Origin: an uncultured Clostridia bacterium
Lineage (GTDB): Bacteria > Bacillota > Clostridia > Saccharofermentanales > Saccharofermentanaceae
Direction: 5' to 3'
Assembly (NCBI GenBank): GCA_905235455.1
Contig: CAJOLL010000001.1
Coordinates: forward strand, 1-64,000
DNA length: 64,000 bases
The position numbers and the translations under genes were made by a program. Below are positions 13,796 through 63,156 of the stretch, piece by piece. Positions within the stretch are counted from its first letter, which is position 1; every line of letters starts with the position of its first letter. The notes under the pieces were generated by a model. The model was not told where the DNA came from. It did not search any database and saw nothing but the letters and a program-made list of their open reading frames with translations.

Positions 13796-13808
13796 TAAAG
13801 GTGGAAAA

Positions 13809-14690: not shown

Positions 14691-14709
14691 TTTAGTGGGA
14701 GAAAACAGT

Positions 14710-15426
14710 ATGGCAAATATTGCACTGATTATAGCGGGCGGTTCCGGCAACAGAATGCATCAGGACATTCCCAAACAGTTTCTGACGGTCAATGAGCGGC
14801 CTGTCATTATCTATACGCTCGAAGCTTTTGAAAAACACCCGGAGATCGATGCGATCGGAGTTGTTTGTATTGAAGGCTGGGAACAGGTCCTGCAGGCATA
14901 TGCCAAGCAGTTTAATATTTCGAAGCTTAAGTATATCGCTCCCGGCGGAACGAATGGTCAGGGTTCGATCCGCAATGGTCTTTTCGAGCTCGAAAAGCAC
15001 TGTTCGCCAGATGATCTTGTTCTGATTCACGATGCGATCCGTCCGATGGTTTCAGCCGAGATCATTTCGGATAATATCCGTGTTGCCAAGAAGAACGGAA
15101 ATGCGATAACAGTTATTCCTTGTGCCGAAGCAATGCTTCAGACGGAAAACGGCGAAGTATCCACAGGAACATATCCGCGTGATGCCCTTAAGAGAACGCA
15201 GACACCTCAGGCTTTTCGTCTTGGTGACATATGTCAGCTCCATCGTGATGCGCTTGAAAAAGGCATAATTAATTCTGTTGCTTCCTGTACACTTATGATC
15301 GAGATGGGAAATCAGGTTTATTTTTCCGCCGGATCAGAAAAGAATATCAAACTTACAACAGTTGAAGATATCGACATTTTCAAGGCGCTTCTTGCAGCTT
15401 CCCGATCTGACTGGCTCAAAGAGTAA
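14710..15426 (+). CDS. IspD/TarI-family cytidylyltransferase
   Basis: A 238-residue enzyme that activates a sugar-alcohol phosphate with CTP. The N-terminus has ALIIAGGSGNRMH-IPKQF (residues 5-23), and HDAIRPMVS plus the GTYPRDALKRTQTPQ block are typical. IspD (isoprenoid pathway) and TarI (ribitol-5-phosphate) cannot be told apart by eye; location between LicD and an SDR in a glycan cluster favours making a CDP-alditol for transfer by LicD. The start at 14710 follows GGGAG by 8 nt; a GTG at 14695 has no SD. Confidence 0.85.
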   Translation: MANIALIIAGGSGNRMHQDIPKQFLTVNERPVIIYTLEAFEKHPEIDAIGVVCIEGWEQVLQAYAKQFNISKLKYIAPGGTNGQGSIRNGLFELEKHCSPDDLVLIHDAIRPMVSAEIISDNIRVAKKNGNAITVIPCAEAMLQTENGEVSTGTYPRDALKRTQTPQAFRLGDICQLHRDALEKGIINSVASCTLMIEMGNQVYFSAGSEKNIKLTTVEDIDIFKALLAASRSDWLKE

Positions 15427-15434
15427 GGTGGTCT

Positions 15435-17628: not shown

Positions 17629-18755
17629 GTGAATCATTTAATGTGAAAAATCAGATCATAACACTCGCCGGATGTCTGTATTTTGTGGCAATGACACTTC
17701 TGACTCAGAATGAGTCTCTGCCATTACAGCTGTTTTGGTATGCTTCGATTCTTTTCGGAGCTGCCGTAACTTGTGTTGTAAATCTCCATATGTTCAAAAG
17801 AAATCTTATTTTCTTTCTCCTGATGTTTGCTGCTACCGGCGTTGCGAATCACTTTATCATCGGCTCAATATCCATTAAACCGTTCGCACTTATGTTTATC
17901 CAGTTTTTTATAGCGTTGCTTTTCCTGAATAAAAGGTTTGATTATAAGGCGCTTTTGGCAATAGTGCTGCTCAACGGCGGCATTATAATTCTCAAGTTTA
18001 TGACTGTCGGCTTCTGGGGAGATCTGTATATCAATTCCTCAAACAACTTTGTCTCCGTTTACATGCTTTATCCGACCGTATTGTATTACTGTCTTGCCGA
18101 AGATCGTAATGAAAAACCGTATTTATGGCCGGCTGCATTTCTGTGGATCATGAGCCTTCTTTCTCGCGGTCGTGGTGGCATTATTGCATCTACGTTCCTT
18201 TTCGTCGGCATATTCTATGTGATGTATAGAAAGAGAAAACGTGATTTCCGTGCACTTTTTCTGATCGTGTTGGTTATCTTTATTTCTGCCGTTGCGGTAA
18301 ATATCGACAGGATCATTAACATGATCAACAGCTCTATGATATCTGAAACTTTCCGTGACCGCGGAATGAACAGTTCGCGTATATTCCTCTGGAAAGACTA
18401 TCTGAAACTGACATTTTCCGAGAAAAAATACCTTATCTTCGGCACAGATATCCATAAGACGCTTGCCTGGGAGAGATATGCCGGAAACTCACATAACAGT
18501 TATATCAACATCCACACTTATAATGGTCTGATCTGTTTTGTCTATGTGATGGTTATTCTTGTGAAGAACGTGCTTCAATCGATCAGATATAAGAGACCAT
18601 TCTACTTTTTCTGCCTTGGCACACTCCTTTTCCGGGCGTTTACCGATAATGTTTTCTGGATGACTTACGGCACGGTGACGCTGTTTGTTATGATGTTCCT
18701 GTTTTCTGTTCCGGAAAAAATCTCGAAGAATAAAGAGGTCAAAGAATTTAATTAA
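17625..18755 (+). CDS. Wzy-like O-antigen/polysaccharide polymerase or ligase
   Basis: A 376-residue integral membrane protein with about ten hydrophobic segments and a larger polar extracytoplasmic loop near residues 235-300 (RGMNSSRIFLW, AGNSHNSYINI), the layout of O-antigen polymerases/ligases. RGRGG after a membrane segment (about 186-190) and the SHNSY pattern are typical of that superfamily. Expected job: polymerise lipid-linked repeat units outside the membrane. The ATG at 17625 overlaps the previous TGA (ATGA) and has GGAGAG upstream; an earlier in-frame ATG lies in the preceding gene. Confidence 0.82.
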   Translation: MSESFNVKNQIITLAGCLYFVAMTLLTQNESLPLQLFWYASILFGAAVTCVVNLHMFKRNLIFFLLMFAATGVANHFIIGSISIKPFALMFIQFFIALLFLNKRFDYKALLAIVLLNGGIIILKFMTVGFWGDLYINSSNNFVSVYMLYPTVLYYCLAEDRNEKPYLWPAAFLWIMSLLSRGRGGIIASTFLFVGIFYVMYRKRKRDFRALFLIVLVIFISAVAVNIDRIINMINSSMISETFRDRGMNSSRIFLWKDYLKLTFSEKKYLIFGTDIHKTLAWERYAGNSHNSYINIHTYNGLICFVYVMVILVKNVLQSIRYKRPFYFFCLGTLLFRAFTDNVFWMTYGTVTLFVMMFLFSVPEKISKNKEVKEFN

Positions 18756-18757
18756 GT

Positions 18758-20179
18758 ATGGATAATAAAATTGAGGGAAAAGCACTAAAAGCAGGTACAT
18801 GGTATACTATCTCCAATTTTCTTATGAGAAGTATCGGTATTCTGACGACGCCGATTTTCGGAAGATTATTAACGGAAGGTGAATTTGGAGCATATAGTAA
18901 TTTCACTACCTGGCTAAGCATTTTGACAATCTGTATTACGCTGAATCTGGATAGTACTTTTATCAGCGCCAGATACGATTTTGAGGATTCATTTGATGAA
19001 TATATTCTTTCCGTATTGGGATTAAGCACGATTTCTTCGATTGTATCGATATTTCTTCTGAATCTTGTGTTCCCGCTGATCCAGCCGATCTTACTGATCG
19101 ACCGGTTTTATCTTAACTGCCTTTTGGTATATCTTGTTTTTCTGCCGGCGGTCAATATGTTTCAGGCAAGAGAAAGATATTACTATAAGTACAAAATGTC
19201 GGTGTTCCTTAGTTTCCTTGTTTCTATCGGAACAGCGCTTCTTTCGGTCGTGCTTGTACTGGGAATGGGTAACCGCCTTACCGGTCGAATCATCGGCAGC
19301 CTGATACCAACGATTTTGATCGGAATTGTGCTTTATGTAGTGATCATGAATCTCGGCAAACGGCATTTTGTTACCTCATATTGGAAATATGCAATTAAGA
19401 TCTGCCTTCCTTTTATCCCGCACCTTTTATCCATGTCGCTTCTGAATTCCATGGATAAGACTATGATTACGAATATCTGCGGAGAAGAAGCAAATGGTCT
19501 ATACAGTATGGCATATACCTGCGGATCGTTGGTTTCTATTCTTATTGTATCTATGAATTCCGCTTTCTCGCCTTGGCTTGGACAAAAGCTTAACGAGAAA
19601 AAATATAAGGATATCAATTCGTTTTCCAAAACGTATATCCTTCTATTCAGCGCAATGGCAGTAATGATGATGCTATTTGCGCCGGATATCCTTTATCTGA
19701 TAGGCGGGCATAAGTATCTGTCAGCGCTTTATGTTATGCCGCCGGTCGCCTGCGGCTGTATTTTCCAGTTCCTTTACACTCTGTACGTAAATGTTGAACA
19801 GTTTACTAAAAAGACAGTTGGAATGGCTATTGCGAGTGTATCTGCAGCACTTTTGAACTTTATTTTGAATTCTGTTTTTATTCCGAAATTCGGATATATC
19901 GCAGCAGCATATACAACACTTGCCGGATTTGCATGGCTTCTGGCAGCTCATATTATCATTGTCAGGATCTATAAAATGCAGAAGGTATACCCCAATAAAC
20001 TGGTCGGACTTGTAGCTACGATATCTGTTGTTCTGACTGTTTCAATAAATCAGATGTATGATACTCCGATATTCAGATACATTTTCGGCGGTATTTATAC
20101 GGTATGCCTGATGTGTGTTATTATAAAGAATAAGGATAAACTCTTAGTGGTATTAAAAAGGAAGAAGAAAAATGTTTAA
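18758..20179 (+). CDS. Wzx-like polysaccharide flippase
   Basis: A 473-residue MOP-superfamily membrane protein with about 12-14 hydrophobic segments. The N-terminus (AGTWYTISNFLMRSIGILTTPIFGRLLT followed by GEFG) is the classic oligosaccharide-flippase start. Role: move the undecaprenyl-linked repeat unit from the cytosolic to the outer face. The SD is weak (AGAGG about 20 nt upstream); translation is probably coupled to the polymerase gene, which ends 2 nt earlier. Its end overlaps the next gene by 8 nt. Confidence 0.92.
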   Translation: MDNKIEGKALKAGTWYTISNFLMRSIGILTTPIFGRLLTEGEFGAYSNFTTWLSILTICITLNLDSTFISARYDFEDSFDEYILSVLGLSTISSIVSIFLLNLVFPLIQPILLIDRFYLNCLLVYLVFLPAVNMFQARERYYYKYKMSVFLSFLVSIGTALLSVVLVLGMGNRLTGRIIGSLIPTILIGIVLYVVIMNLGKRHFVTSYWKYAIKICLPFIPHLLSMSLLNSMDKTMITNICGEEANGLYSMAYTCGSLVSILIVSMNSAFSPWLGQKLNEKKYKDINSFSKTYILLFSAMAVMMMLFAPDILYLIGGHKYLSALYVMPPVACGCIFQFLYTLYVNVEQFTKKTVGMAIASVSAALLNFILNSVFIPKFGYIAAAYTTLAGFAWLLAAHIIIVRIYKMQKVYPNKLVGLVATISVVLTVSINQMYDTPIFRYIFGGIYTVCLMCVIIKNKDKLLVVLKRKKKNV

Positions 20180-21380
20180 TCTTGAACAGTTTATAGGTAA
20201 ACATGTTACTTTTAGAGAAAAATCCATGTTCCTTAATGATATTGAACGGAACAGGGAAGAATTGTCAAATAAGATAAAAGGGAAGTCTGTTCTCGTTATC
20301 GGCGGCGCAGGAAGCATCGGATCATCGTTTATCAAGGCGATCCTTCCTTTTCAGCCATCTACACTCGTTGTTGTAGATATTAATGAAAATGCACTTGCCG
20401 AGCTTACCCGAGATCTCCGTTCGACTCCCGGAATGTATGTACCTGAGGATTATATTCCTTATCCGATGGATTTTGCAGCTCCGGTCTTTGAGAAGATGTT
20501 CAGAGAAAGAGGCGGCTTTCAGATCGTCGGTAATTTCTCTGCGCATAAGCATGTCCGTTCCGAAAAGGACATTCATTCTGTTGAGGCCTTGATCCAGAAT
20601 AATGTTATCCATGCAAAAGGACTTCTGGATCTGCTTTCCGAGTATCCGCCGGAAGAATACTTCTGTGTATCCACAGATAAAGCGGCAAACCCGGTAAACA
20701 TCATGGGCGCATCCAAGAGAATCATGGAGGACCTTATCTTCAGTTATTCAGATAAGTTCCCGGTAAAAACAGCACGTTTTGCAAATGTTGCTTTTTCAAA
20801 CGGCTCACTTCCTGCCGGCTGTCTTGCCCGTATATCCAAGCTTCAGCCTATCTCGGCGCCTTCTGATGTGCGACGCTATTTTGTATCTCCGGAAGAATCC
20901 GGTCAGATCTGCATGTTATCCTGTATGCTTGGTGAAAACAGAGCGATCTTTTTCCCGAAACTAAAAGAAGCACAGATGATGACATTTGATGCAATTGCTA
21001 CTGCACTGATCGAGGAACATGGCTATTCTGTTTTGAAATGTGCTTCCGATGCTGAGGCTATCGAGAAGTCCAAAGCACTTAAAAACGGATCCACGGAGTA
21101 TCCTGTCCATTATGCTGTTTCTGATACTTCCGGTGAGAAGGCATTCGAAGAATTTGTCACAGACACTGAAACAGCTGACATAGAGCGTTTTGACGCACTT
21201 GGAGTTATTACCGGAAAACCTGTTCCGAATAAGGATTCTGTGTTAAAACTCTGTTCAGATCTGAATTCTGCTTTTGAACAGGGATCAACAACTAAAGCGC
21301 AGATCGTAGATATCATGAAAGATTATCTTCCGAATTTTCAGCATATTGAGACCGGAAAGAGTCTCGACAGTAAGATGTAA
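20172..21380 (+). CDS. legB: Nucleotide-sugar 4,6-dehydratase, LegB-like
   Basis: A 402-residue CapD/FlaA1-type SDR. GGAGSIGSSF (44-53) binds NAD(P); the STDKAANPVNIMGASKR block near 170 carries the catalytic Asp-Lys and substrate region of HexNAc 4,6-dehydratases. In legionaminic acid synthesis LegB turns GDP- (or UDP-) GlcNAc into the 4-keto-6-deoxy sugar used by the aminotransferase encoded next. It starts within the end of the flippase gene with AAGGAAG as SD. The C-terminal ~80 residues are longer than in the minimal enzymes. A UDP-GlcNAc inverting dehydratase (pseudaminic route) is the alternative; the neighbours favour the Leg route. Confidence 0.8.
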   Translation: MFNLEQFIGKHVTFREKSMFLNDIERNREELSNKIKGKSVLVIGGAGSIGSSFIKAILPFQPSTLVVVDINENALAELTRDLRSTPGMYVPEDYIPYPMDFAAPVFEKMFRERGGFQIVGNFSAHKHVRSEKDIHSVEALIQNNVIHAKGLLDLLSEYPPEEYFCVSTDKAANPVNIMGASKRIMEDLIFSYSDKFPVKTARFANVAFSNGSLPAGCLARISKLQPISAPSDVRRYFVSPEESGQICMLSCMLGENRAIFFPKLKEAQMMTFDAIATALIEEHGYSVLKCASDAEAIEKSKALKNGSTEYPVHYAVSDTSGEKAFEEFVTDTETADIERFDALGVITGKPVPNKDSVLKLCSDLNSAFEQGSTTKAQIVDIMKDYLPNFQHIETGKSLDSKM

Positions 21381-21399
21381 TTGAAAGGACGTTATTACT

Positions 21400-22578
21400 A
21401 TGTGTGCTTATATCCCGCTTTCCATTCCAAACTTCGAGGGAAATGAGAAGAAGTACGTAAATGATGCTGTAGAACAGGGCTGGGTATCCACCGGTGGCGC
21501 ATACATCACCAAGCTTGAACAGGAACTTGCCAAATTCCTTCATACGGAAAATGTGGCTGCTTGTCAGAGTGGTACTTCAGCGCTTCATCTTTCTCTTGTT
21601 CAGGCCGGAGTTAAGCCCGGAGATGTAGTTCTCGTTCCTCCGCTGACATTTATAGCTGCCGTAAATCCGGTGAAATATCAGTTTGCTACACCTGTATTTA
21701 TCGATTGTGATGACAGTTTCTGTATCGATCCGGTCAAACTCCGTGCTTTCTGTGAAAACGAGTGCCGTTATGAAGACGGTGTTCTTACATATCAGAACAA
21801 GCCGGTAAAAGCTCTTGTTGTTGTCCATGTTTTCGGCAATCTCGCAGATATGGAATCAATTATGGATACAGCGAAGAAATATTCGCTGAAAGTGATCGAA
21901 GATGCTACAGAAGCTCTCGGCACTCATTATACAGAAGGGAAACTTGCCGGCAAATATGCCGGAACTATCGGTGATTTTGGCGCTTTCAGTTTTAACGGAA
22001 ACAAGATCATCACTACCGGCGGCGGTGGTGCGGTTACTTCGAATGATTCGAGTGTTGTCGATCATCTGAGATATTTATCCACACAGGCAAAGAATGATCC
22101 GCATTATTACATCCATGATGAGATCGGGTATAACTATCGTATGACAAATCTTCAAGCGGCTCTTGGTGTTGCTCAAATGGAAGAACTTCCTGAGTTCATC
22201 CGCAGGAAACAGGCAAACTATGAACTGTATATGAAAGAATTCGAAGGCTTTGATCTTGCTGAACTGATGCCTTTCCGTGAGGGTACATCTTCAAATAAGT
22301 GGTTCTATTCACTTTGTATCGATCGATCCAGAATAACGGCGACGATGCGTGAAATTATAACAGCACTTGACGGGAAGGGCATCCAGACCAGAGCAATCTG
22401 GGGCTTGATCAATGAACAGAAGCCCTATGATCATGAGATCACATATCAGCTTGAAAAAGCTCCGTACTATGCGGACCGCATCCTGAATATTCCTTCCAGC
22501 ACACAGATCACAAAAGAAGAAATCTCATATGTTGCACAGCAGGTAAAACAGCTTCTTGAGGAATTAGCCAATGGATAA
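21400..22578 (+). CDS. legC: PLP-dependent aminotransferase, LegC-like
   Basis: A 392-residue DegT/DnrJ-family enzyme with PLP Lys202 in FSFNGNKIITTGGGG and the RMTNLQAALG block near 247. In the legionaminic pathway it aminates C4 of the 4-keto-6-deoxy-HexNAc nucleotide. It lies between the LegB-like and PtmE-like genes and overlaps the latter by 8 nt. The IPLSIPNFEGNEKKYV start and GTSALHLSL block match the nonulosonate subgroup. Role assigned mainly from neighbours. Confidence 0.85.
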   Translation: MCAYIPLSIPNFEGNEKKYVNDAVEQGWVSTGGAYITKLEQELAKFLHTENVAACQSGTSALHLSLVQAGVKPGDVVLVPPLTFIAAVNPVKYQFATPVFIDCDDSFCIDPVKLRAFCENECRYEDGVLTYQNKPVKALVVVHVFGNLADMESIMDTAKKYSLKVIEDATEALGTHYTEGKLAGKYAGTIGDFGAFSFNGNKIITTGGGGAVTSNDSSVVDHLRYLSTQAKNDPHYYIHDEIGYNYRMTNLQAALGVAQMEELPEFIRRKQANYELYMKEFEGFDLAELMPFREGTSSNKWFYSLCIDRSRITATMREIITALDGKGIQTRAIWGLINEQKPYDHEITYQLEKAPYYADRILNIPSSTQITKEEISYVAQQVKQLLEELANG

Positions 22579-23626
22579 AATGGAAATCGAAAACTTTATC
22601 GGCAGAAATGATCCTCTCTTGTCAAAGGCTATGCAGGCGATCGACAATAATGCGAACGGGATCCTTTTCCTTGTGGATGAAAATGATCGTCTTTTCGGAT
22701 GTGTTACCGATGGTGATATCAGACGATTCCTTCTTGCCGGCGGGAAGATTACTGATCAGGTAAGCAGGGCGGCGAATCTCAAGCCGTTAATTGCTCGTTC
22801 TTCTGATGAGGCGAAGCGGCTGTATCACAAAAAGAATTACGTAGTGATCCCGATCGTGGACGGTGAGGGCCGTATCATTGATCTTTATAACGGCTCCGGA
22901 AATGAGAAGAAAAGAAGCGCGCTGAATCTCCCTGTTGTTATCAACGCAGGAGGGCGTGGCACACGACTGGATCCTTTTACCCGCGTTCTGCCAAAACCTC
23001 TGATTCCTGTCGGTGAGCTTCCGATCATTGAATTGATCATGCAGGAGTATCAGAGCTATCACTGTGATGAGTTTCATATTATCGTGAATTACAAAAAAGA
23101 ACTGATGAAGGCATACTTCAACGATAACGAGAATCACTATAATATCAGCTGGTATGATGAGACGGTACCTCTCGGTACAGGCGGTGGTCTTAGCCTTTTG
23201 AAGGGTAGGATGCATGATACTTTCTTCTTTGCGAATTGTGATGCTCTTCTTACCGCGAATTATGAACGCATGGTTGAGTTTCATAAGCAGAATAATAATG
23301 TGATCACTATTATCGGTGCGGTCAAGAATATCAGCATCCCGTATGGTGTGATCGAAATGGGCATCAACGGCGCAATTGAGGAAATGAAGGAGAAACCGGA
23401 GTTTTCTTTCATAACTAACACGGGGATCTATATTGTGGAACCGGAAGTCGTTGAGGAAATGGAAGATAATGTCAGTATCGGATTCCCTGATGTTGTTGAG
23501 CTTCAGAAACAGCGTGGAAAACGCGTTGCCGTTTTCCCGATAAGTGAAAATGAATGGATGGACATGGGTCAGCTTCCTGAACTTGAACGGATGCGCAACA
23601 GACTTTATGGAGAAGGACAGGTATGA
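22571..23626 (+). CDS. ptmE: CBS-domain sugar-1-phosphate nucleotidyltransferase, PtmE-like
   Basis: A 351-residue protein with two parts: a CBS pair (about residues 8-110, with FLVDENDRLFGCVTDGDIRR) and a nucleotidyltransferase (about 115-350, with VVINAGGRGTRLDPFT and LPKPLIPVGELP). This fusion is typical of PtmE, which in Campylobacter makes the GDP-activated glucosamine that starts legionaminic acid synthesis. The CBS pair may sense an adenine nucleotide. Start overlaps LegC; a second in-frame ATG lies 9 nt later. The end overlaps the next gene as ATGA. Confidence 0.88.
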   Translation: MDKMEIENFIGRNDPLLSKAMQAIDNNANGILFLVDENDRLFGCVTDGDIRRFLLAGGKITDQVSRAANLKPLIARSSDEAKRLYHKKNYVVIPIVDGEGRIIDLYNGSGNEKKRSALNLPVVINAGGRGTRLDPFTRVLPKPLIPVGELPIIELIMQEYQSYHCDEFHIIVNYKKELMKAYFNDNENHYNISWYDETVPLGTGGGLSLLKGRMHDTFFFANCDALLTANYERMVEFHKQNNNVITIIGAVKNISIPYGVIEMGINGAIEEMKEKPEFSFITNTGIYIVEPEVVEEMEDNVSIGFPDVVELQKQRGKRVAVFPISENEWMDMGQLPELERMRNRLYGEGQV

Positions 23627-24258
23627 CGAAAAGACTACTTCTAATTGGCGGAGGCGGACATTGTGCCTCGATTCTTGATTCTGTCCTAAGATCCGGACAG
23701 TTCGAGAAAGTCGGGATCGTTGATAGTAATGATCAGATCGAGCGATTGGGGATTTCTGTTGTCGGAAGTGATGATGATCTTCAAAAACTGTTTGACGCCG
23801 GCTGGACAGATGCTTTTGTATCTGTCGGAAGTGTAGGAAATGTCTCGATCCGTCGGGAACTCTATGCAAAGATCAAAGAGATCGGCTTTTCGATTCCATC
23901 GATCATTGATCCGACATCGGTTATTGCTTCGGATGTTGATATAGCAGAGGGCTGTTTTGTCGGTAAGTCCGCAGTAATTAATTCCGGCGCGAGGATCGGT
24001 TTGTGTGCGATTATTAATACAGGAGCTGTTGTTGAACATGACTGTGCAGTCGGAGATTTCTGCCATGTTTCTCCAGGCTCGATCCTTCTCGGAGGTGTTC
24101 ATGTCGGCGAGAATACCCATGTTGGTTCAGGATCTGTTGTAAAACAAGGCATTCAGATCGGATCTGACACCATGATCGGACAATTGAGTAATGTCTTATC
24201 AGATATTTCATCCGAAGTAACTGCTTATGGAAATCCTTGTAAGGTGGTGACCCAATGA
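23623..24258 (+). CDS. NeuD/PglD-family sugar acetyltransferase
   Basis: A 211-residue protein: an N-terminal Rossmann-like PglD domain (LLIGGGGHCASILDSV, residues 5-20) and a C-terminal left-handed beta-helix of hexapeptide repeats (from about residue 95: DVDIAEGCFVGKSAVINSGARIG). It should acetylate the 4-amino group using acetyl-CoA, the LegH step, or O-acetylate the finished nonulosonate as NeuD does. ATGA overlaps on both sides place it firmly inside the pathway block. Confidence 0.85.
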   Translation: MTKRLLLIGGGGHCASILDSVLRSGQFEKVGIVDSNDQIERLGISVVGSDDDLQKLFDAGWTDAFVSVGSVGNVSIRRELYAKIKEIGFSIPSIIDPTSVIASDVDIAEGCFVGKSAVINSGARIGLCAIINTGAVVEHDCAVGDFCHVSPGSILLGGVHVGENTHVGSGSVVKQGIQIGSDTMIGQLSNVLSDISSEVTAYGNPCKVVTQ

Positions 24259-25247
24259 GCGTATTTATCATTGCTGAAGCAGGCGTAAATCATAACGGGA
24301 GTCTTGAACTTGCAAAGAAACTGGTCGATTGTGCAAAAGAGGCCGGTGCGGATTGTATTAAGTTTCAGACTTTTAAAGCGAAAAACCTCGTGTCTCCCAT
24401 AGCGCAGAAAGCCGAATACCAGAAGAAGACGACCGGAGATGATTCTCAGTTTTCTATGCTGAAAAAACTCGAACTCTCCTATGATGAGTTTATCGAACTG
24501 AAAGAGTATTGCGATCATTCCGGAATATGTTTCCTTTCCACGCCTTTCGATTTTGACAGTATCGATTTTCTTTCCTCACTTGACATGCCATTCTGGAAGA
24601 TCCCTTCCGGCGAAGTGACAAACTATCCGTATCTGGTTGCTTTGGCCAAAACAGGAAAACCGATCGTGATGTCCACCGGCATGTGCGAGATGAATGAAAT
24701 TGAAGAAGCAATAAGAGTCCTTTGCGAAAACGGCGCAAAGGAAATATCCCTTTTGCATTGTAATACCGAGTATCCGACTCCCTTTACAGATGTCAATCTC
24801 AAAGCAATGGAGACATTAAGAGAAGTCTTCGGCCTAAAGGTGGGGTATTCCGATCATACAAAAGGTATCGAAGTGCCAATTGCTGCAGTTGCTCTCGGTG
24901 CTGCGATCATCGAGAAGCATTTTACGCTGGACAGAAATATGGAAGGCCCTGACCACAAGGCCAGTCTTGAACCATCCGAACTGAAGTCCATGATCAGCTC
25001 CATTCGAAATATCGAGCAGGCGATAGGTTCTTCTGAGAAGAAACCGTCTGATTCCGAAAAGAAAAACATAGCTATTGCAAGAAAGAGCATTGTTGCTAAG
25101 TGCAAAATCAATAAAGGCGAGATCCTTTCTGAGTCGAATCTTACCGTAAAACGACCGGGGAACGGTATTAGTCCGATGAGATGGCCGGATGTGCTCGGAA
25201 CTATTGCAATACATGATTTTGAAGAGGATGATCCGATAGAAGTATGA
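24255..25247 (+). CDS. legI: Nonulosonic acid synthase (NeuB/LegI-like)
   Basis: A 330-residue enzyme that condenses phosphoenolpyruvate with the six-carbon amino sugar to give the nine-carbon acid. The N-terminal TIM barrel begins EAGVNHNGSLELAKKL with IKFQTFK; TPFDFDSID and KIPSGE are typical of NeuB. A C-terminal SAF/antifreeze-like domain spans about residues 270-330. Legionaminic rather than sialic acid is inferred from the neighbouring LegB/LegC/PtmE genes. AAGGTGG is the SD; ATGA overlaps both neighbours. Confidence 0.92.
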   Translation: MSVFIIAEAGVNHNGSLELAKKLVDCAKEAGADCIKFQTFKAKNLVSPIAQKAEYQKKTTGDDSQFSMLKKLELSYDEFIELKEYCDHSGICFLSTPFDFDSIDFLSSLDMPFWKIPSGEVTNYPYLVALAKTGKPIVMSTGMCEMNEIEEAIRVLCENGAKEISLLHCNTEYPTPFTDVNLKAMETLREVFGLKVGYSDHTKGIEVPIAAVALGAAIIEKHFTLDRNMEGPDHKASLEPSELKSMISSIRNIEQAIGSSEKKPSDSEKKNIAIARKSIVAKCKINKGEILSESNLTVKRPGNGISPMRWPDVLGTIAIHDFEEDDPIEV

Positions 25248-26398
25248 AGAAAATAGCTGTAATTACTACAACCCGTGCTGAATATGGACTTCTTAAGCCT
25301 GTGGTCGAACAGCTTCGAAAGTATGAGAATGAGGATATCCGAATAGAACTTGTTGTCTCCGGTACTCATTTATCTTCTCGTTTTGGCATGACTGTGGATG
25401 AGATCGACCAGCGTATCGATCATAAGATCGAGATTCCCGTTAATACGGATTCTGATCTGGATATATCGAAGAACCAGGCGGAAGCACTCATTCGGTTTAC
25501 AGAATTATTTATTTTCCAAAAATATGATGCCGTCGTTGTGCTTGGCGACCGGTATGAGATGCTCTCGGTTTCCATAGCGGCAGGAAACACCAGAACTCCG
25601 GTATTTCATCTTTGTGGCGGTGATACGTCGGAAGGTGCACTTGACGAATGGATCCGTCATTCGATCTCAAAAATCAGTTATCTGCATTTTGTTACCAATG
25701 AAGTCAGCCGCAAACGCGTTATCCAGCTTGGTGAGGATCCGTCCCGAGTTTTTAATTTCGGTTCTACGAGTATAGATAATATTCTTACGATTGCAGATAT
25801 GGAAAAGTCTGAAGCTCTGGAGAGCATAGGTCTTTCAGATTGTGATTACGCGCTCTGCACTTACCATCCTGTCACGACAAAGGATGAGGATCCGAAAAGT
25901 CAGATCGATGCTTTTCTGGATGCCGTCAAATCATTCCCGGATCTTACCTTTATCGTGACGAAATCCAATGCGGATCGTGGCGGTGAATTTATTAACCGTA
26001 TGCTCGATGATGCTGAAAAAACAATTTCCAACTTGCACGTGTTTGCGTCACTTGGCGTCCGCAGGTATCTTTCCCTGATGAAATATTCGAAGTTTGTGCT
26101 TGGAAACTCTTCCAGCGGCATTATTGAGACCCCGGCTTTTCATATTCCGACAGTCAATATCGGCGATCGTCAGCGTGGACGTCTGCAGTCGGAAAGCATA
26201 ATTAACTGCGGTGAAGATAAAAATGCTATAATATCTGCTATTTCAGAAGCTCTTTCCGAGCGTCACATGAAGATATGCCGTTCCGTTGTAAGTCCTTATG
26301 GTGACGGTAATGCGGCATCCAGGATCGCCGACAAGGTGATCGAGTGTGTTTGCCGCGGGCAGATCGACTTAAAGAAACATTTTTATGACCTTCAATAA
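25244..26398 (+). CDS. legG: Hydrolysing nucleotide-sugar 2-epimerase (NeuC/LegG-like)
   Basis: A 384-residue GT-B-fold enzyme that removes the nucleotide and inverts C2 to yield the free ManNAc-type sugar used by the synthase. VLGDRYEMLS (about 95-104), HLCGGDTSEGALDEWIRHSI and the C-terminal GNSSSGIIETP (about 289-299, UDP-binding) are diagnostic of NeuC-type enzymes. Gene order acetyltransferase-synthase-epimerase matches nonulosonate loci. Confidence 0.92.
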   Translation: MKKIAVITTTRAEYGLLKPVVEQLRKYENEDIRIELVVSGTHLSSRFGMTVDEIDQRIDHKIEIPVNTDSDLDISKNQAEALIRFTELFIFQKYDAVVVLGDRYEMLSVSIAAGNTRTPVFHLCGGDTSEGALDEWIRHSISKISYLHFVTNEVSRKRVIQLGEDPSRVFNFGSTSIDNILTIADMEKSEALESIGLSDCDYALCTYHPVTTKDEDPKSQIDAFLDAVKSFPDLTFIVTKSNADRGGEFINRMLDDAEKTISNLHVFASLGVRRYLSLMKYSKFVLGNSSSGIIETPAFHIPTVNIGDRQRGRLQSESIINCGEDKNAIISAISEALSERHMKICRSVVSPYGDGNAASRIADKVIECVCRGQIDLKKHFYDLQ

Positions 26399-26412
26399 TA
26401 GGAGATGACATT

Positions 26413-27381
26413 ATGAATGTTGTAGTAATAGGTTTAGGTTCGATGGGAAAAAGAAGGATCCGTCTCATTTCCGAGATGTTCTCCGAGTATGTGATCTTCG
26501 GCGTAGATAGCAGGGAAGACCGGAGAACGGATGCTTCCTCCTTATTCGGTATCACTTGCTTTGATTCCCTGGACAGCATCGATCAGGAGGTGCAGTGCGC
26601 TTTTGTCTGCACATCTCCTTTGTCTCACGCTGCGATCATTAAGACCTGCCTGAATAAAAAATGGAATGTCTTTACTGAACTCAATCTTGTTGAAGACGGG
26701 TATGATGAGAATATCAAGCTTGCAAAGAAAAATGACTGTAAGCTTTTCCTGTCTTCCACGTTCTTTTATCGTGAAGAGATCCGTTATATCCGTTCGAAGA
26801 TCGATAATTCGAAAAAATGGAATTATATTTACCATGTGGGCCAGTATCTTCCGGACTGGCATCCGTGGGAGGATTATAAGGATTTCTTTATTGGAAACGA
26901 GCGAACAAACGGCTGCCGTGAGATCCTTGCTATTGAATTGCCCTGGCTTACGGGTACTTTTGGAAAGGTGAAGGATCTTCGTGTTCTGTCTGACAAAATG
27001 ACAGGCTTGAACATCGGATATAAAGACAATTTCCTTATTCAGGTCGAGCATGAAGATGGCAACAAGGGTATGCTGATCGCAGATGTTGTTTCTCCTGTAG
27101 CTGTTAGAAAGCTCGAGGTGTATTCGGAGGGAGCCTATTACAGATGGGATGGTACTCCGGACAGTATCAAGGAGTTTAATCCGGATACAAAAGCACTGGA
27201 TGACGTTCAGCTTACCGAACAGACTGAACATGAGTCCGGATACAGTACATTTATTGTAGAAAATGCTTACAAAAATGAGATCCGAGAGTTTTTCTCCGTG
27301 GTTCTGGAAAACAAAGAACCGCTTTACGGATTCGAGCAGGACAAGAATACACTGGCGCTCATCCAGAGAATAGGAGCGTAA
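26413..27381 (+). CDS. Gfo/Idh/MocA-family oxidoreductase (first of two)
   Basis: A 322-residue NAD(P)-dependent oxidoreductase. VIGLGSMGKRRIR (residues 5-17) is the dinucleotide fold and TELNLVEDGYDENIKLAK (about 84-101) occupies the position of the family's EKP loop, although the usual EKP is replaced by ELN. The C-terminal half is the beta-sheet catalytic domain. Such genes are common in legionaminic clusters, where their step is not fixed. SD TAGGAGAT is 8 nt upstream. It is 2 nt from a second, related gene. Confidence 0.82.
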   Translation: MNVVVIGLGSMGKRRIRLISEMFSEYVIFGVDSREDRRTDASSLFGITCFDSLDSIDQEVQCAFVCTSPLSHAAIIKTCLNKKWNVFTELNLVEDGYDENIKLAKKNDCKLFLSSTFFYREEIRYIRSKIDNSKKWNYIYHVGQYLPDWHPWEDYKDFFIGNERTNGCREILAIELPWLTGTFGKVKDLRVLSDKMTGLNIGYKDNFLIQVEHEDGNKGMLIADVVSPVAVRKLEVYSEGAYYRWDGTPDSIKEFNPDTKALDDVQLTEQTEHESGYSTFIVENAYKNEIREFFSVVLENKEPLYGFEQDKNTLALIQRIGA

Positions 27382-27382
27382 G

Positions 27383-28318
27383 ATGCAGGACTTTCGAGTT
27401 TGTTTTGTAGGCGTCGGATCAATTGCCAAACGCCACATCAAGAATCTCCGTGCGATTTGTCCGACACGTGGACTAAACATTTCTATAGATGCATACCGCC
27501 GTTCATCTGGTTCTTCGGAAGTAGAAGGCATCGATCGTGTATTTACCGATCGGAAAGACATGAAGGATCACTATGATGCCGTCTTTATCACGAATCCGAC
27601 GGAATATCATCTTGATGCGCTTCGTTCTTTTCACGAGGTTTCTGATCATTTTTTTATTGAAAAACCACTGGTATCATTCAAGCAGCTTGATTCGGTATCC
27701 GGATTTCCATTCCGTAAGGATGCCGTCTATTATGTTGCATGCCCTCTCAGATATAATGCTGTGATCCAGTATATTGCCGAGAATATCGATGTCTCTGATG
27801 TGATCTCAGTCCGCTCGATATCGTCGAGCTATCTTCCGGACTGGAGACCCGGACAGGATTACCGCGATACATATAGCGCCCATAAAGATCTGGGTGGCGG
27901 TGTCAGCATCGATCTCATCCATGAATGGGACTATCTTTCCTTCCTTTTCGGAAAACCGCTTTCAGTTAAAAGTTTTATCGGAAAAAAGTCGCCACTTGAG
28001 ATCGACAGTGATGATTATGCGATCTATATCGGAGAATATAAAGATCGTATCGTAGAACTGCATCTTGATTATTTCGGAAGAAAGACGATCCGAAGGATAG
28101 AGCTTTTCACGAAGACGGATACGATCGTAGGAGATCTGGTTTCCAATACTATTTCTTTTCTGGGTGAAAACAAAACAGTAGACTTCCATGAAGAACGTGA
28201 TGATTTCCAGAAACGTGAACTGAATCATTTCCTGGATATGATCTATTGTGGCAAAGAGAATGACAGCAGCCATGAACATGCTGTTGATGTACTTAAACTG
28301 ACGCAGGGAGAGGTCTAA
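27383..28318 (+). CDS. Gfo/Idh/MocA-family oxidoreductase (second of two)
   Basis: A 311-residue paralogue of the preceding protein (shared PDW block after the RSKI/RSIS strand and similar length). GVGSIAKRHIKNL (residues 9-21) binds NAD(P); unlike the first copy it keeps the canonical FIEKPL (about 92-97). The Gly-rich GGGVSIDLIHEWDYL contains the catalytic-region His. The divergence of EKP between the two copies suggests they do different steps or form a heterodimer. Confidence 0.82.
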   Translation: MQDFRVCFVGVGSIAKRHIKNLRAICPTRGLNISIDAYRRSSGSSEVEGIDRVFTDRKDMKDHYDAVFITNPTEYHLDALRSFHEVSDHFFIEKPLVSFKQLDSVSGFPFRKDAVYYVACPLRYNAVIQYIAENIDVSDVISVRSISSSYLPDWRPGQDYRDTYSAHKDLGGGVSIDLIHEWDYLSFLFGKPLSVKSFIGKKSPLEIDSDDYAIYIGEYKDRIVELHLDYFGRKTIRRIELFTKTDTIVGDLVSNTISFLGENKTVDFHEERDDFQKRELNHFLDMIYCGKENDSSHEHAVDVLKLTQGEV

Positions 28319-58810: not shown

Positions 58811-58851
58811 AAAACAAAAAGGCTTCCGTCTCAAATAAGAGACGAAAGCCT
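58811..58851 (-). terminator. T-box-controlled attenuator terminator
   Basis: 13-bp near-perfect stem AGGCTTTCGTCTC / GAGACGGAAGCCT on the minus strand with loop TTATTT, then TTTTTGTTTT. It competes with the T-box antiterminator. Confidence 0.92.
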
Positions 58852-59085
58852 GACTTCCGCGGTACCACTCTTTTTCATCACAGCTATGTGATGCACTCAT
58901 CGGATACGGGAACAAATTCCGATATCCTGCTCTCTGATAACGGTGAGCCTCCGACTTCATCTACTAACTGTCTTTTCAATGAAGCGCACTCCAGGGCGAG
59001 TTCAAAACCTTTCTTCTACCCGGCTTCCACCGTCCCGGGCTCTCTATAAGAAGTGGAAGATCTCTACTGATCCCCTTCACAGTGA
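58811..59085 (-). promoter_or_regulatory. Leucine T-box riboswitch leader of leuA
   Basis: The minus-strand leader contains the T-box antiterminator GAGTGGTACCGCGG (58857-58870), followed by a 13-bp terminator stem (58820-58832 with 58839-58851) and a T-run. Upstream lies a stem I region with a specifier loop reading GAA-CTC-GCC; the CTC codon at 58998-59000 specifies leucine. Uncharged tRNA-Leu should stabilise the antiterminator and allow leuA transcription. The 5' limit is approximate. Confidence 0.93.
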
Positions 59086-59135
59086 TTACTTAATTAAAGT
59101 ATCATAAACAAATCACCTTGGCAAGTCTGAAAATA

Positions 59136-59783
59136 TCAGGTCAGATCGATATTCAATGCCGAACACAGATCCTCCACTCGTTTGATCTGTTCCTCCCCTC
59201 GACCATAGAAATAAAAGTATTCGTGATCATACTGAACCAAAACATACAAATCAGGTTGTTCAGGCGAGTTATCATCTAATTTGAAATAACCATGCATGAT
59301 CTGCTTCCTGGGTTCTCTATCAAAATTCTCACTTTTCTCATCAATATAGCCAAACACCTCACTATCATTTATAGCCGTATCAAATGCGGATTGCGCCTCC
59401 TTTTTGCTATCAAAATGAATATATTCAAACTCAAGAATATCATTAGATTCTTCAGAAAAATAATATCCATCTACATCGGATTCACCCTCAATGGAACGTT
59501 CCGTTGTTTCAATTCCCCATTCGGAGCACTTTGATCTGATGATACCGGAAATTGAATTATCTGCTTCAACCGAACTCTCAGATATTGATGATTCGGATGT
59601 TTCTTCAGTGGTCTTCACAGATCCGGATGATTCTGTTGTGATTGGTTTTTCTTCTGAACTGACTTCGGAAACAATGCTTTCTGAAGCTTTGCTCTCAGTA
59701 CCTGCAGAATCCTTTATTTCAGAGCAGCCAAACAGAAAAAGAACTGATAATACGAATAATATACAATATGGTAATCTTTTCAT
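59136..59783 (-). CDS. Unknown lipoprotein, second gene of the orphan lipoprotein operon
   Basis: A 215-residue secreted lipoprotein: signal peptide with lipobox LFGC (Cys20), a Ser/Glu/Thr-rich linker (about 22-85) and a compact ~120-residue C-terminal domain (about 86-215) rich in Tyr, Phe, Asp and Glu with no recognised family. It follows the solute-binding-type lipoprotein by 1 nt (its SD GAGGTG is formed by that gene's last codons), so the two are surely made together. Codon use is AT-richer than the flanking biosynthetic genes. Confidence 0.8.
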   Translation of the reverse strand: MKRLPYCILFVLSVLFLFGCSEIKDSAGTESKASESIVSEVSSEEKPITTESSGSVKTTEETSESSISESSVEADNSISGIIRSKCSEWGIETTERSIEGESDVDGYYFSEESNDILEFEYIHFDSKKEAQSAFDTAINDSEVFGYIDEKSENFDREPRKQIMHGYFKLDDNSPEQPDLYVLVQYDHEYFYFYGRGEEQIKRVEDLCSALNIDLT

Positions 59784-59784
59784 G

Positions 59785-61905
59785 TTATATCACCTCATTA
59801 ATATAGATTTCTACGCGCGTCTCAATTAGCTCGATGCATTCTTCGAGACTTCTGTCTCCATAAAAATACGGATTTGCTTCTTCACAAACAATGTCATAGA
59901 TCTCAGTGCTCATAAAATTATCGCATACTACCGTCTGATGTAGTATGTCATCATATTCTCTGAATAGTTCTTCTTTACTTTCGTCGGATACAGAAGTTTT
60001 CGCTTCTGCATATGAGTTGAACTCCTCTTCCATCCTCTGATATAAAGCGCTATTTCGAACAGGATTGTCAGTAACAAGAGACTGGCATTCGTCAGACAAA
60101 ACAAATTCAATGAATTCCCATGATTCATCTACATATGGAGATAAAGCTGATATAGCATATATGTTTCTTGCAGAGTAAGGAAGTTCTCCCGGTGCATTGG
60201 GATAACCGACCCAGACAATGTCTTGTGTTTCATATTTCTCATAAAGATAGTTTCGAAGTCCGTTAAATTGTTCAAAATCCAACATTATCGTTTTATCTCT
60301 CAATTCACGATAACTACTATGGATCCACGGCTCGCTGGCACCGAAATCATTGACCCACTTCAACAATTTTCTGAACGAGTCCTGATGGAAATCACAATCG
60401 CCTTTTTCATAGTTAACATATTTGTTTATATCCATTGATAGCATCGAATAAATCAGATCTTCCCTGGTGTAGACACCTTGTGCATAAGATCCGTCATCGA
60501 ATGTTGCAAATGTTTTATAAAACGAATTATAATCCCATACGTTAATTCCTTCCATAGTTTCGTTCAGAGCAGAAAAACAGTTAATTGAAAAATCCGTGCA
60601 AATAACATACGGCGTCTCTTGATGCAATGTCAAAACACCATAATTGAACTCGTCCTCTTGGCCGGATACAAAACTGTTTAAATCAATCAGATAATCATCT
60701 TTACAAAAATCACGAAGATCCAGATCTCTATATTTATCGAAATAAATATCCGGAGTTTTTCCGCTGGCTACTTCCAGTCGGATCTTTTCCCCGATTCGCT
60801 TTGAAACAGGTTGATCAGAACTACCTTGAACCTCATCATAATAATCTCGTAAAACATAATGGCAGGAAGGATTTCCTTCATTCATTGTTTCAAGTGCATA
60901 CATCAGACAGGGATCAGAACGCAAATCACATCCGGCAATAGTAATAATTTTCTTGTTTGGATATGGATCTTTGTTTGAAGGAACAAGTTTAAATAACGTA
61001 CATTGGGCAGAATACATAGAATAAGAAAGAAAGTACAGTATTCCGGAATCACATATTTGGATGCGTTTGGGAATACATGATAAATTCAGATCGTCCCATT
61101 GTAATACAGGATCAGGCACACCTAATTCAAATAATCCATTATTATTAACCCAAAGAATCTTATCACCACAAGCAAATATATCTAATGCATCTGAAGGACA
61201 ATCTTTTACTTTAACGATTTCTTGATTGATTACCTCATATAATGCTGTATTGCCAACATCAAATAAAAGTATCCTCTCATTTGAACATATAATCTCCGCA
61301 TTGGACAATTCTAAATCAAAGCTATACTTAGATGAACCATCACTATTGAAAGCAATGAATTCAGTTTGTCCATAACAATCAGCAGTCAATAAAATTGTGT
61401 CGTCATCAAGAACTGTCAAATCCAATAACTGCGATATTATGTGTGATGAAACAAGTTGAATAGTACTCTTCAATTCACCTTCTTGAGAGAAAAAGGCACA
61501 GAAAGGAGAATATTCTCCGTTACCCCCCTCGTATAAAAGACCAGAAATGCAAACATCACCACGATGAGTAACATAAACCAAATCAACACTGTCAATGTTC
61601 TCGATTGTTTCACATACATCTACATTCGATCTACAATTACCCAGATTATCGTAATATGAAAAGAAAAACCTAGGGGATGATTCTTGACACTCATAGCGCA
61701 GGAATACGCAGCCATCACTCACCAGTGCTTCATCTATGATATTCTCATCATCAAACACCCGCTTTTCTATCTGATAATACGGGGACCAATTGAGTTGGTT
61801 ATCACTCAAAATACTCGTACTGTTTTCTGATACATTCATACTGCAAGAAGATGCAATTAAAACAATACAAAGAATTAAAACTATGAATCGATATACTCTA
61901 AACAT
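59785..61905 (-). CDS. Large lipoprotein with N-terminal sensor-like region and C-terminal solute-binding domain
   Basis: A 706-residue lipoprotein: signal peptide with lipobox IASSC (Cys20). Residues ~35-310 are strand-rich with repeated short beta units (YVTHRGDVCISGLL, ILLTADCYGQTEFIAFN, KILWVNNNGLFELG), suggestive of a beta-propeller. Residues ~315-700 resemble a family 1 extracellular solute-binding protein (ASGKTPDIYFDKYRDLDLRDF, APGELPYSARNIYAISALSP, SWEFIEFVLSDE). No permease or ATPase genes are adjacent, so it may sense rather than import. AT-rich compared with neighbours. The fusion is inferred from pattern; neither half was checked by search. Confidence 0.75.
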   Translation of the reverse strand: MFRVYRFIVLILCIVLIASSCSMNVSENSTSILSDNQLNWSPYYQIEKRVFDDENIIDEALVSDGCVFLRYECQESSPRFFFSYYDNLGNCRSNVDVCETIENIDSVDLVYVTHRGDVCISGLLYEGGNGEYSPFCAFFSQEGELKSTIQLVSSHIISQLLDLTVLDDDTILLTADCYGQTEFIAFNSDGSSKYSFDLELSNAEIICSNERILLFDVGNTALYEVINQEIVKVKDCPSDALDIFACGDKILWVNNNGLFELGVPDPVLQWDDLNLSCIPKRIQICDSGILYFLSYSMYSAQCTLFKLVPSNKDPYPNKKIITIAGCDLRSDPCLMYALETMNEGNPSCHYVLRDYYDEVQGSSDQPVSKRIGEKIRLEVASGKTPDIYFDKYRDLDLRDFCKDDYLIDLNSFVSGQEDEFNYGVLTLHQETPYVICTDFSINCFSALNETMEGINVWDYNSFYKTFATFDDGSYAQGVYTREDLIYSMLSMDINKYVNYEKGDCDFHQDSFRKLLKWVNDFGASEPWIHSSYRELRDKTIMLDFEQFNGLRNYLYEKYETQDIVWVGYPNAPGELPYSARNIYAISALSPYVDESWEFIEFVLSDECQSLVTDNPVRNSALYQRMEEEFNSYAEAKTSVSDESKEELFREYDDILHQTVVCDNFMSTEIYDIVCEEANPYFYGDRSLEECIELIETRVEIYINEVI

Positions 61906-61921
61906 AATACTGCACCAGAAT

Positions 61922-62002
61922 CTAAGAATTAGAAAACAGTAGCAGCATCAGCATACCCGACTTCAGAGGAAGGAGCATGTTAAGAACTTTATAATTTTTC
62001 AT
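61922..62002 (-). CDS. 26-codon hydrophobic small ORF upstream of the lipoprotein operon
   Basis: ATG at 62002 with GGAGGG 4 nt upstream opens a 26-residue ORF (MKNYKVLNMLLPLKSGMLML...) ending 16 nt before the lipoprotein start. Basic ends and a Leu/Met-rich core suggest a membrane peptide, leader peptide or signal-peptide-like product. The lipoprotein itself has only a weak SD, so coupling through this ORF is likely. Confidence 0.5.
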   Translation of the reverse strand: MKNYKVLNMLLPLKSGMLMLLLFSNS

Positions 62003-62041
62003 AAATCCCTCCGAAAAGAATATTAGAAAGTTTGCTGTTTT

Positions 62042-62070
62042 ATGTTATCAAACGCAAATTATTCGGTCAA
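62042..62070 (-). promoter_or_regulatory. Promoter of the orphan lipoprotein operon
   Basis: On the minus strand TTGACC (62065-62070) and TAACAT (62042-62047), spacing 17 nt, about 40 nt before the small ORF. Confidence 0.7.
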
Positions 62071-62079
62071 CAACAAAAC

Positions 62080-62110
62080 AAAAAAATGGCTGCCCATACG
62101 GACAACCATT
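62080..62110 (-). terminator. Terminator of the DAHP synthase gene
   Basis: Minus-strand stem AATGGTTGTCC / GGGCAGCCATT (two G-U pairs), loop GTAT, followed by a run of seven or more T. It partly precedes the -35 of the next promoter. Confidence 0.9.
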
Positions 62111-62133
62111 CTTAATGCTATTTTTCAGATTGA

Positions 62134-63156
62134 TCAGTTCTTCGGATAAGAACGTTTAACGATCGCTGCCATTTCTTTGACTCTCAGTGCAAGTTCTGCA
62201 TACGCTTCCGGTGTAAGCTGCTGAGCTGCATCTGAAAGAGCATGTTTCGGATCCGGATGAACTTCGATAATGAGACCATCTGCACCTGCTGCAACAGCGG
62301 CGAGAGCCAAAGGCTGTACATACTGTGCTTTTCCTGCAGCATGACTCGGATCAACGATGACCGGAAGATGCGTCTTACCTTTAAGTACCGGAACTGCACT
62401 GATATCCAATGTGGATCTTGTTGCAGTTTCAAATGTTCTGATACCGCGCTCGCACATCATGATGTGGTAATTACCTTCACTCATGATATATTCGGCAGAA
62501 CCGAGCCACTCATCAATCGTTTCCGCAATACCACGCTTGAGCATGACCGGAATACCGGATTTACCGACAGCGGACAAAAGACGGAAGTTCTGTGCGTTTC
62601 TGGCACCGATCTGGATGATATCCAGGTAATTCGATGCATATTCGATATCATTTTCGGAAGTAACCTCACTGATGACCAAAAGACCATAGCGGTCAGCTAC
62701 ACGGCGGAGGATCTTAAGTCCTTCCTTTTCCAGGCCCTGGAAAGCATAAGGAGAGGTTCTCGGCTTATAAGCACCGCCACGCAGGACTTTTACGCCACAC
62801 TCAACCATCTTGGAAGCGACAGCTTCTACCTGCTCTTCACTTTCGACAGCACAAGGTCCTGCCATCATGACGAGTTCTTTTCCACCAAACGTGACATCTT
62901 TTACGTTAAACGACGTGCCTTCCGGACGGAACTGACGGCTGGCGAGCTTATACGACTCCATGATCGGAACGATCTTCTCAACGCCGCTGAGAACTTCAAG
63001 AGAACCGGGAGTCAGCCGCGATTTATCACCGATTACGCCGATGATCAAACGCTCGGAACCTTCGGAGACATGCGCCTTGAGTTCGTTTCTTTCCAAAACG
63101 TCAATAATCTCATGTACCTGAGACTCACTGGCACCCGGTTTTACAACAATAATCAT
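62134..63156 (-). CDS. aroF: 3-deoxy-7-phosphoheptulonate (DAHP) synthase
   Basis: A 340-residue enzyme condensing phosphoenolpyruvate and erythrose-4-phosphate, the entry to aromatic amino acid synthesis. The N-terminal ~70 residues are the ferredoxin-like regulatory domain of the type I-beta (Thermotoga-like) group; the barrel starts at FGGKELVMMAGPCAVES, with GGAYKPRTSPYAFQG, QIGARNAQNF and IVDPSHAAGK active-site blocks. The regulatory domain suggests feedback control by an aromatic amino acid. SD AAGAAGGT; a -10 box TATAAT (minus, 63215-63220) lies upstream. Confidence 0.95.
   Translation of the reverse strand: MIIVVKPGASESQVHEIIDVLERNELKAHVSEGSERLIIGVIGDKSRLTPGSLEVLSGVEKIVPIMESYKLASRQFRPEGTSFNVKDVTFGGKELVMMAGPCAVESEEQVEAVASKMVECGVKVLRGGAYKPRTSPYAFQGLEKEGLKILRRVADRYGLLVISEVTSENDIEYASNYLDIIQIGARNAQNFRLLSAVGKSGIPVMLKRGIAETIDEWLGSAEYIMSEGNYHIMMCERGIRTFETATRSTLDISAVPVLKGKTHLPVIVDPSHAAGKAQYVQPLALAAVAAGADGLIIEVHPDPKHALSDAAQQLTPEAYAELALRVKEMAAIVKRSYPKN

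Follow-up and report, generated by a model that had tools for sequence, protein, structure and literature searches.

A surface lipoprotein pair in a rumen Clostridia genome, possibly the orphaned half of a mobile cassette whose wider family is linked to Agr loci

The window analysed here is a stretch of 64,000 nucleotides (positions 1 to 64,000 of contig CAJOLL010000001.1, assembly GCA_905235455.1) from an uncultured rumen bacterium of the family Saccharofermentanaceae. Between two metabolic genes, aroF and the T-box-controlled leuA, it carries two open lipoprotein genes on the minus strand: gene 2, whose product is predicted to join a beta-propeller to a solute-binding protein (SBP) domain, and gene 3, whose product is predicted to carry a Mog1/PsbP-like domain. 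In related genomes, these two genes form a cassette with an upstream gene for an NlpC/P60 (C40) peptidase, and one complete copy is located directly behind an agr operon. Annotation routinely assigns proteins of this solute-binding fold to transporters; the window pair, however, probably binds something at the cell surface rather than feeding a transporter of its own. The interpretation favoured here, tentatively and at somewhat less than an even chance, is that a mobile cassette has left its surface half orphaned here, as two lipoproteins with a receptor or self-protection role that were retained when the hydrolase and the signalling genes were lost. A first-pass annotation of the region from its sequence had proposed an orphan operon of a small hydrophobic open reading frame (ORF) and two lipoproteins, perhaps serving ligand sensing or peptide signalling; its observations were confirmed in part, and its interpretation is likewise supported in part.

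The cassette was delineated by a profile scan of homologous loci, in a comparison set with one genome per species. The gene order C40, gene 2, gene 3 is found in three genomes of the same genus (G008, G012, and G002) and in two of the same family (G026 and G030). The C40 proteins encoded there are approximately 160-190 amino acids long, match PF00877 with E-values of 1.7e-8 to 4.7e-14, and retain an invariant Cys and His. Across 23 genus genomes, 57 matches to PF00877 were obtained, and the only three small frames (approximately 180 amino acids) among them are those of the three genus cassettes with an intact C40 gene. A tree of 80 gene 2 homologues places 15 genes from 13 genus genomes in a cassette clade (SH-aLRT 99), in which the window gene and its G008 counterpart group together (SH-aLRT 100); gene 3 is located downstream of gene 2 for 10 of these 15. 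The window pair conforms to this arrangement: its gene 2 belongs to the clade and has gene 3 downstream in the same orientation. It has no intact C40 gene upstream, and the only PF00877 match elsewhere in its genome (G000, a 161-contig draft estimated at 92% complete) is a single 471-amino-acid frame. The conserved partner of the two lipoproteins is a C40 peptidase, which the first-pass annotation could not have seen, and not the small ORF.

Cassette copies occupy different genomic places, and the slot of the first gene has been replaced repeatedly: a blastn comparison of G015 with G005 revealed shared flanks, a break 26 bases before gene 2, and different genes upstream. For close pairs of copies without C40, the ratio of nonsynonymous to synonymous substitution rates (dN/dS) is 0.07-0.46 for genes 2 and 3, indicating purifying selection; the lipoproteins are therefore maintained without the hydrolase. 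The corresponding value for gene 3 of the window and G008 is approximately 0.33. At two further loci, L042 (G000:C25, 11458-14367) and L183 (12254-13042), propeller-SBP genes are preceded by a gene for a protein with an NDCS motif, which appears C40/CHAP-like by eye and has no match in Pfam or NCBIfam. An orphan gene 3 relative was also observed at L143 (G010:C80, 831-4667), beside genes that resemble, by eye, those for a sirtuin and a lipoate-protein ligase.

The region upstream of gene 2 in the window probably retains a trace of the lost hydrolase gene. In G008, which holds the closest homologue, the C40 gene ends in ...SEVGYAYCI, 19 bases before gene 2. Window positions 61951-61967 are identical to this C40 tail at 16 of 17 bases, at the same place and in the same frame relative to gene 2, and the match score was equalled by 8 of 5000 dinucleotide shuffles. 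These results provide moderate evidence for a decayed 3' tail of an NlpC/P60 gene, whereas relatives carry the intact partner gene. A C40 tail alone precedes gene 2 at three other loci (L067, L070, and L058).

The 26-codon ORF that the first-pass annotation had counted as a component of the operon overlaps this probable C40 tail in another reading frame. The ORF exists and has a strong Shine-Dalgarno (SD) sequence, with a predicted duplex energy of -12.3 kcal/mol. The window copy of gene 2, at -5.7 kcal/mol, has the weakest SD sequence of the genes compared (-9.1 to -12.4 kcal/mol for gene 2 in five homologues). When the region was shuffled, an ORF of this length with an SD sequence appeared in 1% of cases. 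Its role as a component did not hold up, since the ORF is not conserved: no counterpart was found upstream of any gene 2 homologue, and the 22 other genus genomes yielded nothing beyond one weak match in G002, antisense to another gene and attributed to chance. It was therefore rejected as a conserved peptide gene, and equally as an AgrD, since it lacks both a Cys and the QPK motif and in this differs from the AgrD-like peptides encoded behind AgrB. With its stop 16 bases upstream of the gene 2 start, the ORF may still act as a leader from which ribosomes pass on to gene 2 by translational coupling. The case serves as a warning that a tempting small upstream ORF can result from reading the remains of a lost gene in the wrong frame.

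The dedicated promoter claimed for the operon is not established. A fair promoter-like match is located just after the aroF terminator, but such matches are no more frequent in the region than expected by chance (15 observed versus 13.0 expected, standard deviation 3.7), so that finding one here proves nothing by itself. Because aroF ends in an intrinsic terminator, however, the inserted segment is likely to have a promoter of its own. No clear terminator was seen between gene 3 and the T-box, and cassette transcripts could run into the leuA leader.

The description of gene 2 as a 706-residue lipoprotein joining a propeller-like region to a solute-binding domain was borne out by the structural analysis. 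The protein has the lipobox LIASSC21, and its AlphaFold2 model, built with 24 relatives, has a mean predicted local distance difference test (pLDDT) score of 85.3, with approximately 24 strands at residues 43-310 followed by an SBP fold at residues 319-706. The Foldseek and VIA lists are dominated by the SBP domain, and the propeller is assigned from the model together with a sequence profile of the N-terminal part. Against PDB sequences, this profile matched solved beta-propellers (best E-value 5.8e-9, the designed propeller 7awz), as well as the designed propeller 8prj and PQQ and NHL propellers. Since the profile was built from sequence alone, the assignment does not rest only on the model. 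The strand count suggests that the propeller probably has six blades; hhalign comparisons between putative blades gave only a weak repeat signal, too weak to demonstrate six repeats.

In the model, the SBP domain has a fold of the CUT1 sugar-binding kind. It matches CbpC (7x0o) with a Foldseek E-value of 2.4e-15 and a VIA Z-score of 26.5 over 371 aligned residues (root-mean-square deviation 4.0), and other CUT1 SBPs with Z-scores of 22-24; the matches as a whole, among them CbpC, MalE, and TMBP, span Z-scores of 20-26.5. The window protein itself scores below the Pfam cut-off. Gene 2 thus resembles the CUT1-type solute-binding lipoproteins CbpC and CbpB of Clostridium thermocellum (SBP_bac_1/SBP_bac_8) in its predicted SBP fold, lipoprotein anchor, and G-x-x-P-D motif. 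It differs from them in its fused N-terminal propeller, in having no cognate permease nearby, and in its linkage to a C40 peptidase and a second lipoprotein.

This second lipoprotein, the 215-amino-acid product of gene 3, was also correctly recognised in the first-pass annotation. Its lipobox, LFLFGC20, is followed by a disordered linker rich in Ser, Thr, and Glu and then by a domain at approximately residues 75-212, over most of which model confidence is good. The order of elements in the model (alpha-beta-beta-alpha-beta-beta-beta-beta-alpha) is that of a Mog1/PsbP-like fold, and most of the top structural matches come from the same superfamily, including TM1622 (VIA Z-score 10.0), TiME (9.5), the PknH ectodomain (8.6), and DcrB (8.1). 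On the basis of the model, the C-terminal domain is accordingly Mog1/PsbP-like, sharing its fold (Z-scores of 7.4-10) and predicted extracytoplasmic location with LpqN, MTC28, the PknH sensor, TiME, and DcrB. In contrast to these proteins, gene 3 comes from another phylum and neighbourhood, and no sequence relation to them was detected. No convincing sequence relatives were found in Pfam, NCBIfam, or the PDB; matches to PDB sequences were confined to the signal peptide and linker, and matches of the gene 3 profile elsewhere were mostly to Ser/Thr-rich lipoprotein linkers.

The two genes lie within a segment (Table 1) whose edges were placed against a near-identical empty aroF-leuA site in G002 (L159), such that the left edge may shift by some bases. 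The segment contains 36.2% guanine plus cytosine (GC), compared to 44.2% for the window, confirming that the set is AT-richer than its surroundings, and the G008 copy is equally AT-rich within a locus of 50.7% GC. The clean insertion between aroF and leuA and the low GC content support arrival of genes 2 and 3 by transfer, at which the first-pass annotation had hinted. The ends carry no terminal repeats longer than six bases, and the six-base matches are at chance level, leaving no sign of transposon-like ends or a target duplication. Plasmid and phage origins were considered and set aside, with no plasmid match and no relative encoded on any viral contig.

Table 1. Features of the aroF-leuA interval in the window
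Feature	Coordinates	Strand	Description	Basis
Gene 2	59785-61905	-	706-amino-acid lipoprotein; predicted beta-propeller and CUT1-type solute-binding domain	ORF, AlphaFold2 model, Foldseek/VIA, propeller profile
Gene 2, propeller part	60976-61779	-	Residues 43-310, predicted	DSSP of model; sequence-profile matches to PDB sequences
Gene 2, solute-binding domain	59788-60951	-	Residues 319-706, predicted	VIA; conserved motif G-x-[AT]-P-D
Gene 3	59136-59783	-	215-amino-acid lipoprotein; predicted Mog1/PsbP-like C-terminal domain	Lipobox, model, VIA
Inserted segment	59127-62052	-	2,926 bp	Alignment with the G002 empty site (L159), GC content, no long terminal repeats
26-codon ORF	61922-62002	-	Not conserved; possible translational leader for gene 2	
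Probable 3' C40 gene remnant	61929-61979	-	Frame HAPSSEVGYADAATVF-stop	Block match to G008 C40 tail
Promoter-like match	62042-62070	-	TTGACC-17-TAACAT, TG before second hexamer	
aroF intrinsic terminator	62082-62113	-	14-pair stem and T run	
aroF	62134-63156	-	Upstream neighbour of the inserted segment	
leuA T-box leader	58835-59089	-	Outside the cassette	Rfam RF00230, 130 bits

The genes aroF and leuA are adjacent in the genus, both having been located in 22 of 23 genomes, and the gap between them is short (approximately 0.33-0.49 kb, with no insert) in 14 of 21 other genus genomes. In six genus genomes, the gap instead holds two ORFs on the opposite strand; judged by eye, they resemble an extracytoplasmic function (ECF) sigma factor paired with an anti-sigma protein of the membrane. 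In G006, a gene 3 relative stands there alone. The gap appears as a recurrent insertion site (L151-L156, L170) for sigma/anti-sigma-like ORFs, a gene 3 relative, or genes 2 and 3.

In G002, the complete cassette is located directly behind four genes in the order agrB-agrA-agrC-agrD, of which agrA encodes a LytTR regulator, agrC a GHKL kinase, and agrD an AgrD-like peptide (...NVSCPLVVFQPKM...). This is the gene content of an Agr operon (agrBDCA; PF04647, TIGR04223, GHKL kinase, LytTR regulator). An integrase gene flanks the cassette on one side, and past its opposite end lie genes for MobC, a relaxase-like protein, and another integrase-like protein, suggesting that it probably lies on an integrative mobilizable element. 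The stretch as a whole (G002:C8, approximately 11759-27536; L223, L224, L051) holds two related integrase genes, the relaxase-like gene, MobC, the Agr operon, C40, propeller-SBP, and lipoproteins. Beyond this genome, a propeller-SBP gene was found in 25 of 53 AgrB regions of the family versus 0 of 20 control regions from the same genomes (Fisher p 4e-5, an approximate value given the few controls and the several regions drawn from related genomes). Of the 25 nearest AgrB/propeller-SBP pairs, 23 are on the same strand, and 18 are within 3 kb. The typical order at such loci is regulator, kinase, AgrB, AgrD-like peptide (TIGR04223), a small secreted protein of 100-180 amino acids, lipoprotein, and propeller-SBP.

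By a simple signal-peptide rule, small secreted proteins are encoded at 14 of the 25 AgrB loci with a propeller-SBP gene and at 6 of the 28 without one; no convincing family match was obtained for the five that were tried. In the set of AgrB loci L172-L224 (e.g., L197, 9175-12721; L217; L210), AgrD-like peptides ending in HQPKRPKK are encoded directly behind AgrB, and many of these loci have divergent small secreted proteins of 100-180 amino acids after the AgrD-like peptide. The window differs from an Agr locus in that its genome gave no AgrB match, an absence that is not final in a 92% complete draft, and its 26-amino-acid ORF has no AgrD features. The earlier suggestion of ligand sensing or peptide signalling thus gains indirect support from the strong Agr linkage of the relatives of the large protein, while a signalling role for the window pair itself is hypothetical. 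Agr genes are already known in rumen Firmicutes (PMC10838665). A limited search of open-licence papers found no report of an association between Agr and propeller-SBP genes, nor any description of propeller-SBP fusions with C40 or of Agr together with solute-binding proteins in Ruminococcus.

The first-pass claim that the operon contains no transporter proved correct for the window pair and extends to its 14 closest homologues, none of which has an ATP-binding cassette (ABC) permease nearby. No PF00528 gene is located near any cassette in ten genomes, and the nearest in the window is approximately 57 kb away. Compared to a CUT1 ABC importer, which comprises an SBP and two permeases, gene 2 has the predicted SBP fold but not the adjacent PF00528 permeases. 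Homologues directly before MalF/MalG were found only among distant paralogues, at G000:C24 and seven other loci, and these fall outside the cassette clade in the tree. At these loci (L040 in G000:C24, 8012-19794, and also L066, L075, L076, L079, L093, L097, and L099), one to three propeller-SBP genes are followed by MalF/MalG-type permease, HlyD-like, and MacB-like genes, and a PF16962-type exporter gene precedes the set in L040, L075, and L079. This joining of an importer-type set to efflux-type genes recurs in Ruminococcaceae and Lachnospiraceae.

The surface interpretation can be laid out from the intact cassette, which encodes a predicted secreted C40 peptidase, the propeller-SBP lipoprotein, and the Mog1/PsbP-like lipoprotein. 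An Agr system would switch on a secreted wall-active product, namely the C40 peptidase in the cassette clade and the small secreted proteins at other Agr-linked loci. The lipoproteins would stay anchored on the membrane of the producer, where the SBP cleft and propeller could bind either the glycan or peptide product that is released or the target in the wall, and such binding would shield the producer or keep it informed. With the C40 gene of the window probably decayed and no Agr genes present as far as the draft genome shows, the two lipoproteins would persist as an orphan receptor or immunity-like pair. That they protect the producer from a co-encoded secreted product is argued by gene order and the pattern of loss alone. 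Several observations weigh against this interpretation: the probable C40 remnant upstream of gene 2 is short; Agr genes lie beside the cassette in just one (G002) of the 13 genus genomes that carry the clade; and the Agr statistics derive mainly from distant members of the gene 2 family. In addition, the C40 peptidase may be an ordinary wall enzyme, and the SBP domain belongs to a type used in sugar import and is better conserved among homologues than the propeller (mean identity 48% versus 33%), which also fits ligand capture for import.

Import is the basis of the closest rival, an accessory function in which the propeller-SBP protein would bind a cello-, chito-, or peptidoglycan-derived oligosaccharide and pass it on to a CUT1 permease whose genes lie at another locus. 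This explanation, somewhat unlikely in itself, is nearly as good as the receptor or protection interpretation. It draws on the similarity of the SBP domain to the CUT1 sugar binders CbpC and CbpB, its better conservation, the distant paralogues directly before MalF/MalG, and the several permeases of the window genome that could be shared. A precedent is the orphan lipoprotein AdcAII, which shares the AdcBC permease for zinc (PMC8966984); like gene 2, it is a solute-binding lipoprotein encoded apart from a permease, but it is a zinc-binding (cluster A-I) SBP with no propeller, and for gene 2 permease sharing is hypothetical. Set against import are the absence of a permease from the cassette neighbourhood in every genome checked and the position of the permease-linked paralogues outside the cassette clade; in addition, the C40 and Agr linkage and the second lipoprotein would be left unexplained.

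A role as signal co-receptor, in which the lipoprotein binds an autoinducing or other secreted peptide and relays it to, or buffers it from, a histidine kinase, would account for the linkage of the family to AgrB/AgrD/AgrC/AgrA loci and had been hinted at by the small ORF. Known Agr signalling, however, requires AgrC alone as receptor, the predicted SBP fold is typical of proteins that bind sugars and not peptides, AgrB gave no match in the window genome, and the small ORF is not AgrD-like, so this role appears quite improbable. About equally improbable is that the segment, once acquired horizontally, is now being lost and no longer serves any function in the strain. Loss of C40, absence of Agr, the accidental small ORF, a single copy in the species, and low GC content would all agree with decay, but both genes are fully open (706 and 215 codons), their lipoboxes are intact, and gene 3 has a strong ribosome-binding site. 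The gene 3 dN/dS value for the window and G008 and the constraint on close pairs without C40 also argue against decay.

The interpretation as a receptor or self-protection pair can be widened to the family. Rumen and gut Ruminococcaceae would then possess an undescribed surface competition system, mobile and under Agr control, with propeller-SBP lipoproteins as its membrane-anchored part. Besides the Agr genes, it would comprise a variable secreted protein, a small C40 peptidase, or both, together with protective lipoproteins that recognise wall glycan or the secreted product, and the window would hold an orphan protective pair; in this full form the proposal is unlikely. The comparison delineates a whole gene 2 subfamily that has no permease, bears a predicted propeller, and has as partners a wall hydrolase and a lipoprotein of the Mog1/PsbP-like kind, within a wider family linked to Agr in rumen bacteria. 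If the proposal is true, these genes would offer a concrete candidate output for the Agr circuits of rumen Ruminococcaceae, and some orphan solute-binding lipoproteins would be receptors or protection factors rather than importers.

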